NCBI GenBank assembly: GCA_031254805.1
Contig: JAIRTP010000094.1
Span: 1 to 36,863 of the forward strand
Direction: 5' to 3'
Origin: Bacteroidales bacterium
Lineage (GTDB): Bacteria > Bacteroidota > Bacteroidia > Bacteroidales > WRLA01
DNA: 36,863 nucleotides
Every line of letters begins with the position of its first letter. Position 1 is the first letter of the stretch. The notes below the pieces were generated by a model that was not told the origin of the DNA, searched no databases, and was given only the letters and a program-made list of their open reading frames with translations. Shown in pieces: positions 202-4,478 of the stretch. The translations under genes were made by a program, and so were the position numbers.

Positions 202-460
202 TCAAAAAGTGAGGATGAATTCCATTAATTTTTCTCTGTTTTAGAAGAAAATGAATTTTTCCCCGAATGTTATCATTTGTATAATAAAAAATACACTTTT
301 GCCTCGTGAAGATAATATTTAAAAGGGAAAAATTTCTACAGGTTCGCATAAAAAAAAAGGGATGCCTTTTTCCTAAATAAAAGAATTAACCCGAATATCA
401 TTTTTTACCATGACATATCTTTACTTTTCTTATTTTTGCAGATTGTTATTTTACAAAAAT
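202..460. other. Non-coding stretch between transposase remnant and tatA
   Basis: AT-rich sequence with no convincing gene. A 68-codon minus-strand frame (143-349) has no recognisable features and overlaps the remnant. A putative tatA promoter box lies at 431-438; nothing else is seen. Confidence 0.5.
431..438 (+). promoter_or_regulatory. tatA promoter -7 box (TATTTTTG)
   Basis: TATTTTTG fits the Bacteroidota -7 consensus TAnnTTTG and lies 22 bases before the ATG at 461. No clear TTTG -33 element is visible. The upstream in-frame ATG at 410 lies before this box, which argues for the start at 461. Confidence 0.5.
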
Positions 461-784
461 ATGACGTTACTTTTTTTAGATATCAGCGGCGGGGAAATTC
501 TGTTTATTGCTTTGGTTGCATTGATCATATTTGGGCCGAAACAGGCGGGAGCTATTGCTAGAAAAGTGGGAAAGACAGTAACAGAATTAAGAAAGGCGAC
601 ATCTTCCATCAAAGACGAGATCATGAAAGAGGATGTAGAAATGACGCAATCGATCTCCAAACCATTGCAAGAGATTACCGAAGAGGCCGAACAAGTCAAT
701 TTGATGTACGGTTTGGATAATGAAGAGCAATTAAATGAAGAAAATCGCGACAAAAAAGAGACCGACCGTGCAACAACTATTTGA
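461..784 (+). CDS. tatA: Sec-independent protein translocase subunit TatA
   Basis: A 107-residue protein with TatA/MttA architecture: a short N-terminal hydrophobic helix (GGEILFIALVALIIF), the FGPK hinge, an amphipathic helix (about residues 28-55) and a charged, Glu/Lys-rich tail. TatA oligomers form the pore through which folded twin-arginine substrates cross the inner membrane, working with TatC. The start at 461 is preferred over the upstream ATG at 410 because it puts the membrane helix near the N-terminus, as in the family, and because the promoter box at 431-438 lies between the two ATGs. No tatC follows; the next gene encodes an OmpA lipoprotein. TatA and TatE cannot be told apart from sequence alone. 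Confidence 0.85.
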   Translation: MTLLFLDISGGEILFIALVALIIFGPKQAGAIARKVGKTVTELRKATSSIKDEIMKEDVEMTQSISKPLQEITEEAEQVNLMYGLDNEEQLNEENRDKKETDRATTI

Positions 785-843: not shown

Positions 844-3312
844 ATGATGATAAAAAAAGGACATATTCCCATTCTGTTTTTTATTTTATTCTCTTGTTTA
901 TTTCTATACTCTTGTTCCGCCAAACGAAAAGTAAGAAAAGCGGATCAGGCTTTTTACGAATATAAATACGACAAAGCAAGGAAAATGTATTCCAAAGTTT
1001 TGAGAAAAGTAAAGGATAAAGATGAGAAAGAACGCGTTCGTTGGCAAATTGCGGAAAGTTATCGTTATAAAGATGATTTGGAAAACGGACAAATTGCTTA
1101 TCAAAATTTGATCCAATCAAAATATTACGAAAAAGAGCCTTTGGTATATTATCATTTGGGAAATATTTTGCTGAAAAGAAGTCGTTTGGATAGATCGTTA
1201 ACGGCTTTTGAGAAATATGTAGAATTAGCTCCCGAAGATACTTTGGGAACGATGGCTTTACAGCGTGTTTCGTTGGCGCGGGAATATGAGATTGATCCGG
1301 GACAATATGAAGTTGAAGTTGAGAAAAAACTTAATTCCGATCTCGACGATTGGGCTCCGACTTACAGCAACTCCGCTTTAAATGAGATCATTTTTACCTC
1401 TAATAAAAATTCCTCTATCGGGAAAAATAGAGATGAATGGACGGGGAAAAAATTTTCCGACTTATATATTGTCCGTAAAGATTTGAAAGGACGATGGGGC
1501 GACCCAAAATTATTAGAAGAAAGCGAAGTCATTAATACCGCCCTCAACGAAGGAACTCCGGCAATGAACGGACATTTTACGACATTATATTTTACCCGTT
1601 GCGAGAAACCGGAGGGAAGAGAAGGCGGTTGCGCGGTTTACGCCAGCAAAAGAACAGGGATGGTGTGGGGAGCGCCGCAACGTTTGGATATGGTGGAAGA
1701 TAGTTCTGCCGTAATAGGACATCCAACCGTTACGCCTGACGAATCTATGATTATTGTTTCGGCTCAATTGCCGGGAGGAAGAGGAGGAAAAGATCTCTTT
1801 TACGCTTTGGGCTCGGGAGGGACATTTGGAGAGTTGCAAAATCTGGGAGATGTGCTCAATACGTCCGGGAATGAGATGTTTCCTTATCTTCGCGGCGATT
1901 CGGTGTTGTATTTCTCTTCCGATTTTCATCCGGGAATGGGAGGATTGGATATTTTCAAGTCGAATATTACGTATGACGACGACGGAGAACCTGTATTTTC
2001 CGAGCCGGTCAATATGCGGTATCCGATCAATTCTATTGGCGACGATCTTGGAATTTGTTTTCATCCCGAAGGAAATGAAGAGGGGTATTTTTCCTCTAAT
2101 AGAAAATATTCGAGCGGATTAGATATCTATCATTTCATAATAGAACCGGTCATTTTTACTATTTCCGGCGTTATTCGCGATATGAATACTTTGCTTTACG
2201 TTCCCGACGTATCAATTACCTTGGTCGGTTCTGACAGCACGGCGATAGAAATTAAAACAGGGGAAAGCGGGTCGTATACCTTCCCAAAAACGCAGGTAAA
2301 TCCTAATACCGATTACGTCATTATTGTAGAAAAGGAAGGTTATTTTAGCGTGGAAGAGAAAATTTCGACCGTCGGATTAGAGACTTCCAAAAATTTTAAA
2401 GTCGACGTATTAAATTTCCAACCTGTTCCGAAAGATCCGGTCGTTCTTCCGGAAATATTATTCGACTATGCCAAATGGGATTTAAAAATGCAATATCAGG
2501 ACTCTTTGCGGGGGTTGATCCAAATTTTGGAAGCCAATCCGACCGTTGCCATAGAATTGGGAGCGCATACTGACTCCCGCGGTTCGGAAGAGGCCAACCG
2601 TGAACTATCGCAAAAGCGGGCGCAGTCGGTAGTCGATTATTTAATAGATCGCGGCATCGATGGCGATCGTTTAACGGCAAGAGGCTATGGAAAAACCGCT
2701 CCGCGCGTTTTGCAAAACGATATGGTTCGCGACGGTTTTACATTTCCTGCCAAAACGCAATTGAACGATGAGTACATCGCAACATTATCGTCGCGTATTC
2801 ATCAAGAAGCGGCCCATCAGTTAAACAGGAGGATAGAATTCATCATTACTTCTACCAGATATGTGCCGAAACAAAAAAGCGATCGAACTAAACCTGCCGT
2901 AACAGTCGCTTCGGCAAACGATCGCAACGGCATTCCTATAACCTTAATCGGAAGAAAGGAATTGCCTCAAATGGAAGGATTTATCAATGGAATGAGCGAA
3001 TTGATTATCATTGACGAATCGCAACGAAACGCCGTCGTTTCCTTGGAAGTAGCATTGGCGTTATTACGCGATGGATATATTACAAAAGATGATTTTGAAG
3101 GCGATCCTGAAAAGGTATTGGTCGGAGGAACCATCGCAAAAAACGCGAGATTTATGGTCAACGATTTAAAGATCGGAGAGAAATCTACTTATGATATTAC
3201 AGTTATTGTCGACCATAATTACAAATTGCCGCTTACCGTTCCGACATCGGTGGTGAGAGATATGGGAAATTTTACGATAGATAAAGAGAAACGACTGCTA
3301 TTTTTTGAATAA
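844..3312 (+). CDS. porE: PorE-like OmpA-family lipoprotein (TPR, PD40, CRD, OmpA, extra C-terminal domain)
   Basis: An 822-residue lipoprotein with lipobox LYSC (Cys24). In order: TPR-like helices (about 30-135), PD40/WD40-like propeller repeats (about 165-435), a carboxypeptidase-regulatory-like beta domain (about 436-500), and an OmpA peptidoglycan-binding domain (about 537-668, with AHTDSRG and NRELSQKRAQSV). This order is that of PorE, the type IX secretion component that anchors the system to peptidoglycan; many Bacteroidota OmpA proteins share it, so the specific name is an inference. About 150 more residues follow OmpA. Residues 700-822 resemble a retropepsin-like domain (DES at 724-726 in the place of DTG, LRDGYITKDDF, and a FTIDKEKRLLFF end) that appears to lack the catalytic motif. 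Its stop overlaps the next start by one base (TAATG), suggesting co-transcription with the PurM-like gene. There are two adjacent ATGs (844 and 847). Confidence 0.8.
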   Translation: MMIKKGHIPILFFILFSCLFLYSCSAKRKVRKADQAFYEYKYDKARKMYSKVLRKVKDKDEKERVRWQIAESYRYKDDLENGQIAYQNLIQSKYYEKEPLVYYHLGNILLKRSRLDRSLTAFEKYVELAPEDTLGTMALQRVSLAREYEIDPGQYEVEVEKKLNSDLDDWAPTYSNSALNEIIFTSNKNSSIGKNRDEWTGKKFSDLYIVRKDLKGRWGDPKLLEESEVINTALNEGTPAMNGHFTTLYFTRCEKPEGREGGCAVYASKRTGMVWGAPQRLDMVEDSSAVIGHPTVTPDESMIIVSAQLPGGRGGKDLFYALGSGGTFGELQNLGDVLNTSGNEMFPYLRGDSVLYFSSDFHPGMGGLDIFKSNITYDDDGEPVFSEPVNMRYPINSIGDDLGICFHPEGNEEGYFSSNRKYSSGLDIYHFIIEPVIFTISGVIRDMNTLLYVPDVSITLVGSDSTAIEIKTGESGSYTFPKTQVNPNTDYVIIVEKEGYFSVEEKISTVGLETSKNFKVDVLNFQPVPKDPVVLPEILFDYAKWDLKMQYQDSLRGLIQILEANPTVAIELGAHTDSRGSEEANRELSQKRAQSVVDYLIDRGIDGDRLTARGYGKTAPRVLQNDMVRDGFTFPAKTQLNDEYIATLSSRIHQEAAHQLNRRIEFIITSTRYVPKQKSDRTKPAVTVASANDRNGIPITLIGRKELPQMEGFINGMSELIIIDESQRNAVVSLEVALALLRDGYITKDDFEGDPEKVLVGGTIAKNARFMVNDLKIGEKSTYDITVIVDHNYKLPLTVPTSVVRDMGNFTIDKEKRLLFFE

Positions 3313-4478
3313 TGAGCGATATACGATATAATTTACGCGGCGTTTCTGCATCCAAAGAGGATGTTCATGCGGCGATTAAAAATATTGACAAAGGATTATT
3401 TCCTAAAGCTTTTTGTAAAATTATTCCTGATATTTTGACGGGAGACGAGCGTTATTGCACTGTTATGCACGCCGATGGAGCGGGGACAAAATCTTCATTG
3501 GCATATATCTATTGGAAAGAAATTGGCGATATCTCCGTATGGAAAGGAGTTGCGCAAGATGCGATAGTCATGAATATCGACGATTTGCTTTGTGTTGGAG
3601 CTTATGATAATATTCTTCTTTCATCCACAATCGGGCGTAATAAAAGATTAATTCCCGGCGAAGTTATTGCCGCCATTATCAACGGCACGGAAGAATTTTT
3701 GCAGAATATGCGCGATCATGGCGTCGGAATTTGGCTAACGGGAGGCGAAACGGCCGATGTAGGCGATTTGGTGCGGACTATTATCGTAGATTCTACCGTA
3801 ACGGCGCGGATGAAGAGAGAAGATGTTATTGATAATAAAAATATTGTTGCAGGCGACGTTATTGTCGGATTGGCAAGTTACGGACAAGCGACTTATGAAA
3901 CAGCTTATAACGGCGGCATGGGAAGCAACGGTTTGACTTCGGCGCGTCATGATGTTTTATCTAAAGCGATAACGAAAAAGTATCCCGAAAGTTATGACGA
4001 CGGCATTCCCGAAGAGGTTGTTTATAGCGGAAGTAAAAATTTGACGGATGAAACGGAGATTTCAGGCGTAAACGTTGGAAAGCTAATACTTTCTCCAACG
4101 CGCACTTACGCGCCTGTTATTAGAGAAATGTTAGAGCATTATCGGTCGCAAATTCACGGGATGATACATTGTAGTGGAGGAGCGCAAACGAAGGTGATGT
4201 ATTTTGTTGATGATCTGCATATAATAAAGGACAATTTATTTCCAGTACCGCCTCTTTTCAAACTCATTCAAGAAGAATCGCAAACTTCTTGGTCTGAGAT
4301 GTATAAAGTTTTTAATATGGGACATCGTATGGAGTTGTACGTCCCTGAAAATATAGCAAACGATCTGATCGCCATCTCAAAGAAATATAACGTCGACGCT
4401 CAAATTATAGGACGCGTAGAAAAATCCGATTCCAAAAAGTTGACTATAAAAAGTGAGAAGGGGATTTTTGAGATGTAA
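3312..4478 (+). CDS. purM: PurM-like phosphoribosylformylglycinamidine cyclo-ligase (AIR synthase)
   Basis: A 388-residue protein of the PurM/AIR synthase superfamily. PurM closes the imidazole ring of FGAM with ATP to give AIR in purine synthesis. Visible hallmarks are HADGAGTKSSL near residue 55 (the family ATP/phosphate segment, as D-G-x-GTK), the DIDDLL-like segment (NIDDLLCVGA), and the glycine-rich ATP-binding stretch LTGGETAD near residue 145, followed by VGLASYG and an SGG-containing C-terminal half. Bacteroidota carry this longer, divergent version of PurM (about 390 residues versus about 345 in E. coli). No other purine gene is in the window. It overlaps the porE-like gene by one base and ends four bases from the convergent permease gene. 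A PurM-like paralogue with another substrate cannot be excluded. Confidence 0.8.
   Translation: MSDIRYNLRGVSASKEDVHAAIKNIDKGLFPKAFCKIIPDILTGDERYCTVMHADGAGTKSSLAYIYWKEIGDISVWKGVAQDAIVMNIDDLLCVGAYDNILLSSTIGRNKRLIPGEVIAAIINGTEEFLQNMRDHGVGIWLTGGETADVGDLVRTIIVDSTVTARMKREDVIDNKNIVAGDVIVGLASYGQATYETAYNGGMGSNGLTSARHDVLSKAITKKYPESYDDGIPEEVVYSGSKNLTDETEISGVNVGKLILSPTRTYAPVIREMLEHYRSQIHGMIHCSGGAQTKVMYFVDDLHIIKDNLFPVPPLFKLIQEESQTSWSEMYKVFNMGHRMELYVPENIANDLIAISKKYNVDAQIIGRVEKSDSKKLTIKSEKGIFEM

Follow-up and report, generated by a model that had tools for sequence, protein, structure and literature searches.

Locus and protein architecture

The window analysed here, that is, the whole 36,863-nucleotide stretch of Bacteroidales bacterium DNA in GenBank assembly GCA_031254805.1 (contig JAIRTP010000094.1, positions 1 to 36,863, forward strand), contains a gene for a PorE-family lipoprotein of the type IX secretion system (T9SS). 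The C-terminal tail of the encoded protein is predicted to adopt the fold of a retropepsin (clan AA) aspartic protease, and the place of the catalytic D-T/S-G triplet in this tail is taken by D-E-S. The features of the gene, all on the + strand, are as follows (pLDDT, predicted local distance difference test score).

844..3312, +: gene for PorE-family T9SS lipoprotein, 822 residues, ATG start (open-reading-frame list; NF052230 match, E 6.7e-156)
844..915, +: signal peptide with lipobox-like L21-Y22-S23-C24 and putatively lipidated Cys24 (reading of the sequence)
1144..1239, +: TPR region, residues 101-132 (sub-threshold match to Pfam TPR_1)
1843..1956, +: part of beta-propeller (PD40), residues 334-371 (Pfam)
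2158..2382, +: carboxypeptidase-regulatory-like domain (CRD), residues 439-513 (sub-threshold Pfam match)
2446..2847, +: OmpA_C-like peptidoglycan-binding domain, residues 535-668 (Pfam; 6top, E 7e-24)
2872..2925, +: predicted flexible linker, residues 677-694 (pLDDT < 50 in full-length and tail models)
2926..3309, +: catalytically degenerate domain of predicted retropepsin fold, residues ~695-822 (profiles, fold, hhalign)
3013..3021, +: D724-E725-S726, replacing catalytic D-T/S-G (tail alignment)
3040..3102, +: S733-G753, where conservation within the tail is highest (L741, G744, I746, K748, F751, G753); candidate contact surface
3235..3243, +: T798-V799-P800, replacing the second motif, hydrophobic-hydrophobic-Gly (tail alignment)

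The signal peptide was called by the general lipobox rule. Downstream of it, the protein exhibits the domain order of PorE (TPR, propeller, CRD, OmpA), as seen in matches to Pfam (TPR-type, PD40, CarboxypepD_reg, and OmpA, several of them below cut-off), in the NCBIfam and PDB matches, and in a full-length structural model. The best NCBIfam model is PorE, NF052230 (520 bits over residues 11-668, short of the curated cut-off of 600 bits, which a scan of eight tail-bearing proteins found to be exceeded in only one); the runner-up is CHU_0125 (334 bits vs. a cut-off of 620). Among PDB sequences, the OmpA domain of Porphyromonas gingivalis PorE (6top) matches best, over residues 535-668. Residues D577, N585, and R592 of the OmpA domain, invariant across 65 aligned tail-bearing proteins, are the equivalents of D576, N584, and R591, which the part of the 6TOP structure report drawn on here gives as peptidoglycan-binding side chains (PMC7192894). 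The genome to which the window belongs has a SprA/Sov match of 2454 bits and 52 matches to the Por_Secre_tail sorting domain. The window protein thus belongs to the PorE family, and its genome carries T9SS genes; because the curated NF052230 cut-off is missed, we infer, rather than assert, its orthology to PorE and its role in T9SS.

The NF052230 model stops at residue 668, leaving ~154 residues (669-822) beyond it, in agreement with the initial annotation of this sequence, which had counted about 150 extra residues after the OmpA domain.

Predicted fold and homology of the tail

An AlphaFold2 model of the tail, computed from an 80-row alignment, has a pLDDT of ~95 from construct residue 21 onward (88.6 overall). 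A Foldseek search with the model returns first the Rickettsia retropepsin 5c9b (E 1.1e-6, 18% identity) and then Ddi1 and HIV protease, and VIA-align 2 gives Z scores of 11.2 to Ddi1 (7d66_E; root-mean-square deviation 2.4 over 100) and 11.0 to 5c9d_A (3.6 over 110). In the full-length model, residues 677-694 are of low confidence (pLDDT < 50), and the domain is therefore predicted to hang on a flexible linker. We conclude that the tail, from about residue 695 to residue 822, is a domain of predicted retropepsin fold.

Profile comparisons indicate the same family, provided that relatives of the window tail are included. With the window tail alone, hmmscan matched no Pfam or NCBIfam model. With 16 tails scanned at E<=10, PF13975 was matched by 11 (best 1e-4) and PF13650 by 5; with 80 tails (the window and 79 of 80 named loci) scanned at E<=0.01, TIGR02281 was matched by 38 (best 9.6e-7), PF13975 by 25, and PF13650 by 9. 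The comparison with these three families proposed in the initial annotation therefore bears out the assignment for the family and not for the window tail taken singly. A profile built from 16 tails and searched against the PDB identifies the Rickettsia retropepsin ApRick (E 0.0012), and the Rickettsia structures of APRc/ApRick (5c9b, 5c9d, 5c9f) are the closest solved fold both by Foldseek and by sequence profile; they differ from the tail in being, according to their record and reference titles, those of an aspartic protease, and in standing apart from any secretion anchor.

Matches to the tail profile extend beyond PorE, to small lipoprotein-like proteins and to C- or N-terminal domains of others. 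Alignment of the tails with 35 such non-PorE domains (33 with D-T/S-G) by hhalign gave a probability of 99.9% over ~128 columns (E ~1e-34; 1e-32 in a second run), and controls with five other PorE regions and five column-shuffled alignments all gave <= 0.2%. A segment of the form LKxGxI-xxDFxG is common to PorE tails and non-PorE domains. The D-T/S-G proteins of Bacteroidota (PF13975/PF13650/TIGR02281-like; L113-L130, L161-L174, L178, L180) thus carry the same domain, with a shared helix-loop segment; they differ in having kept D-T/S-G and in that the domain is housed outside PorE, in lipoproteins or multidomain proteins. We conclude, from sequence profiles and model, that the tail is homologous to clan AA retropepsins. 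The initial annotation had placed such a domain at residues 700-822, nearly the span found here; neither a non-barrel fold nor a lack of clan AA profile matches was found.

Loss of the catalytic triplet

We compared the catalytic place across 136 distinct domains, of which 100 are PorE tails and 36 lie outside PorE context. Of the non-PorE domains, 33 carry D[TS]G, vs. one of the 100 PorE tails, upholding the earlier suggestion that the domain is catalytically dead. The three non-PorE domains without D[TS]G are the first tandem copy of L128 (D-F-G), L117 (D-T-V), and L179, the last of which, counted among the 36, is in truth the PorE tail fragment of genome G050. In PorE tails, Asp occupies the first position of the triplet in 77/100, T/S occupies position +1 in 4/100 and R/K in 68/100, and Gly occupies position +2 in 11/100; in the window, the triplet reads D724-E725-S726, exactly where the initial annotation had located it. 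The Asp has been lost repeatedly, with at least 13 changes at this position on a 58-row tree, and the role of the tail therefore does not depend on it. The second motif of active retropepsin-like aspartic proteases is hydrophobic-hydrophobic-Gly; its Gly is retained in 91 of the 100 PorE tails, and the window has T-V-P (798-800) instead.

The one PorE tail with an intact triplet, a D-S-G in L109 (from a Bacteroidota metagenome-assembled genome), is also the only homologue found in answer to the question, raised in the initial annotation, of whether any keep DTG. It is nested within relatives that read D-R/K-x, and the motif may be a late coincidence or may have been regained. A selected pairing of kept Asp with new R/K at +1 was considered, since both are present in 59/100 tails, and was dropped, since independent tree pairs give a median p of 1. 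Searching the window's genome with the tail profile (E<=1) found only the PorE copy, so this species, at any rate, is unlikely to need an active partner. Because the triplet is lost across the family, the tail is very probably a retropepsin homologue that is not a protease.

Decay of the triplet was also seen outside PorE. The 518-residue frame of L128 holds two retropepsin-like domains in tandem, D-F-G standing in the first and D-T-G in the second, so that it resembles a single-chain half-dead pair. In the non-PorE domain of L212 the triplet has become D-T-L, a further independent case.

Distribution, origin and selection

The initial annotation had proposed collecting PorE homologues and seeing which carry the tail. 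In an order-level sample of 60 Bacteroidales genomes (58 genera), 17 have a PorE tail, almost all of them in different families; the tail is full-length in 16 and lies at a contig edge in the seventeenth (G050). An eighteenth genome (G048) is matched solely through a separate D-T-G lipoprotein that is not PorE. In evenly drawn samples of the class (295 genomes) and the phylum (296 genomes), the matches beyond the window's own are outside PorE context. The 80 named loci that align over the tail are all metagenome-assembled and are from Bacteroidota or so labelled (a few are titled Chlorobiota). Three genomes (G047, G445, G537) carry a second, divergent tail-bearing PorE-like protein (L175, L176, L177).

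To place the tail on the history of its carrier, we used a tree of the PorE body (residues 30-668) with 69 rows, 29 with tail and 40 without, left after six partial rows had been dropped from 75. Presence of the tail costs one change on this tree (mean of shuffles 22.4; 0 of 500 shuffles as low), and 28 of the 29 tail rows form one group with support of 97. On the domain tree, the tail domains make up one side of a fully supported branch that separates them from all other domains. One change on the body tree and a one-sided branch on the domain tree together argue for one fusion. We conclude that there was probably a single fusion, with the D-T/S-G triplet lost at or near the base and vertical descent afterwards.

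The ratio of nonsynonymous to synonymous substitution rates (dN/dS) of the tail, measurable in 16 of 20 close pairs and to be read with many dS values above 1, is 0.02-0.11 in 15 pairs and 0.46 in one (dS 0.064). The tail evolves somewhat faster than the PorE body in most close pairs and is nonetheless clearly constrained, with near-invariant positions at L741 (100/100 tails) and G808 (99/100). We conclude, from these substitution patterns, that the tails are under purifying selection.

L017 and L019, tail-less PorE proteins near the tail clade, have low-complexity C-terminal extensions rich in Pro/Asn or Lys/Thr. L020, a tail-less PorE relative known from a partial sequence, has a SPOR-like domain at residues 525-639 (L020:1574-1918; PF05036, 20 bits vs. 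a cut-off of 21), where others have the tail. Given L020, PorE may be able to accept various envelope-binding modules at its C-terminus.

Flanking genes

The genes on either side of the PorE-family gene are as follows.

410..784, +: upstream neighbour, TatA/B family protein, position conserved
3312..4478, +: downstream neighbour, AIR synthase-related protein (Pfam)

The gene order is kept, with a TatA/B-family gene upstream in 69/81 loci and an AIR-synthase-related gene downstream in 68/81; in the window, the start of the latter and the stop of porE share one base at position 3312. As clues to a partner the neighbours give no lead, Pfam having identified among them only the tatA-like and AIRS-like genes, which are housekeeping in look. 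A repeat search of positions 2500-3400 found one chance-like 14-base pair only.

Discussion

Because a domain of retropepsin fold stands behind a peptidoglycan-binding domain, on a linker, with no catalytic site and under constraint, the best reading of the tail is that of a protein-binding module: that is, we consider it likely that the tail is a pseudo-retropepsin, a non-catalytic protein-binding module carried on a flexible linker behind the PorE peptidoglycan-binding domain. The fold, the homology, the triplet loss, the probable single origin, the purifying selection, and the T9SS genes in the genome are computed here; the location (from P. gingivalis PorE), the binding function, and the partner we infer.

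According to this proposal, the source would be a periplasmic retropepsin-like domain of the D-T/S-G kind still present in small Bacteroidota lipoproteins and larger proteins, which would have been joined once to the PorE C-terminus in the ancestor of a large Bacteroidales group. The catalytic T/S-G would have been lost near the base of that group, and selection would then have kept the tail as a non-catalytic binding module. PorE would sit at the inner leaflet of the outer membrane, as P. gingivalis PorE does, holding peptidoglycan through its OmpA domain, and the module would hang past this domain on the ~18-residue linker, providing one lineage with an extra tether to another PorE or to another envelope part. 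The more specific proposal that the T9SS wall anchor was rebuilt in this way, with a retropepsin fused and inactivated once to become a scaffold linking PorE units to one another or to the PorK/N ring, PorP, or other such parts, is tentative, and we hold its chances to be slightly short of even.

Several points weigh against the reading as a binding module. The window protein scores 520 bits vs. the 600-bit cut-off, so that a T9SS role by orthology is no more than probable; the case is built on relatives and fold, since the window tail by itself hits none of the family models; the exact branch of gain has support of 58, because L013, with tail, and L017, without, are not separated, L017 thus not standing apart from the tail rows; and many of the dS values are saturated.

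A narrower form of the proposal, in which the tail is specifically a homodimeriser that has kept the obligate pairing of retropepsins and so joins two PorE anchors, seems rather unlikely. The part of the literature on the fold consulted here describes retropepsins as homodimers whose aspartates lie at the interface (PMC12239564), which suggests PorE pairing; the fold of the tail by Foldseek and VIA is that of these homodimeric enzymes, and the first and last strands, the dimer platform in retropepsins, are seen in the tail model. The R/K found in 68/100 tails occupies, however, the T/S place at the dimer centre and would set like charges on the twofold axis, disfavouring an unchanged dimer, and an offsetting association of D with R/K is not significant once relatedness is counted.

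It is improbable, in our estimate, that the tail holds extended peptides, such as T9SS cargo or the tail of another protein, in the old cleft under the flap without cutting them. Most of the tail-specific conservation lies within the helix-loop-flap region 733-768, as a peptide binder would have it, but the substrate-side positions best conserved in non-PorE domains (A-S after the triplet and L-L-L-G-Q) drift in PorE tails, and a retropepsin cleft requires a dimer.

We give very little credence to a tail that has remained proteolytic by way of an unusual site, perhaps through the kept Asp: the 77 tails with Asp and the D-S-G of L109 are outweighed by the scarcity of T/S at +1 and Gly at +2, by the repeated loss of Asp, by the additional lack of the second-motif Gly in the window, and by L109 being a single sequence. 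A functionless vestige is, if anything, slightly less credible still: catalysis is lost and the tail outpaces the body in most close pairs, but 17 of the 60 genomes sampled, nearly all of different families, have retained it, with low dN/dS and with L741 and G808 near-invariant. An artefact of assembly or frame, conceivable inasmuch as all 80 named records are metagenome-assembled, can be dismissed, since the same open frame, in the same gene order, recurs in many independent assemblies.

With respect to known systems, the protein resembles P. gingivalis PorE (PG1058) in its conserved peptidoglycan-binding D, N, and R and in its T9SS genome, and differs in that, in the portions of the two reports drawn on here (PMC5053529, PMC7192894), the OmpA domain (534-668) is the last of P. 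gingivalis PorE, whereas the window protein adds a linker and the pseudo-retropepsin domain. Heath et al. (2016) mention, in the portion of their paper drawn on here, extensions at the N- and C-termini of some homologues of PG1058, with data not shown (PMC5053529). The D6 C-terminal domain of PorW, likewise a lineage-specific extension at the C-terminus of a T9SS lipoprotein and, in the part of its report drawn on here, one with a tethering role (PMC8754138), offers a functional analogue only; it belongs to another protein, and we claim no homology. In the open-access literature on PorE, PG1058, T9SS, and retropepsin we found no description of a retropepsin-like PorE tail. What we regard as new is PorE with a pseudo-retropepsin domain; PorE itself, and unspecified C-terminal extensions in its homologues, were already known.

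The tail provides a clear bacterial case of a retropepsin domain turned non-catalytic, and a protease label placed on these proteins by annotation pipelines would mislead. If the proposed reading is correct, a large uncultured group differs in the architecture of one component of a secretion machine that has chiefly been studied in two model organisms; on the more specific proposal of a rebuilt anchor, a pseudo-protease would serve as structural glue within that machine. Little is known of how the T9SS rings are attached to the cell wall and the translocon, and the tail offers an experimental handle on this.
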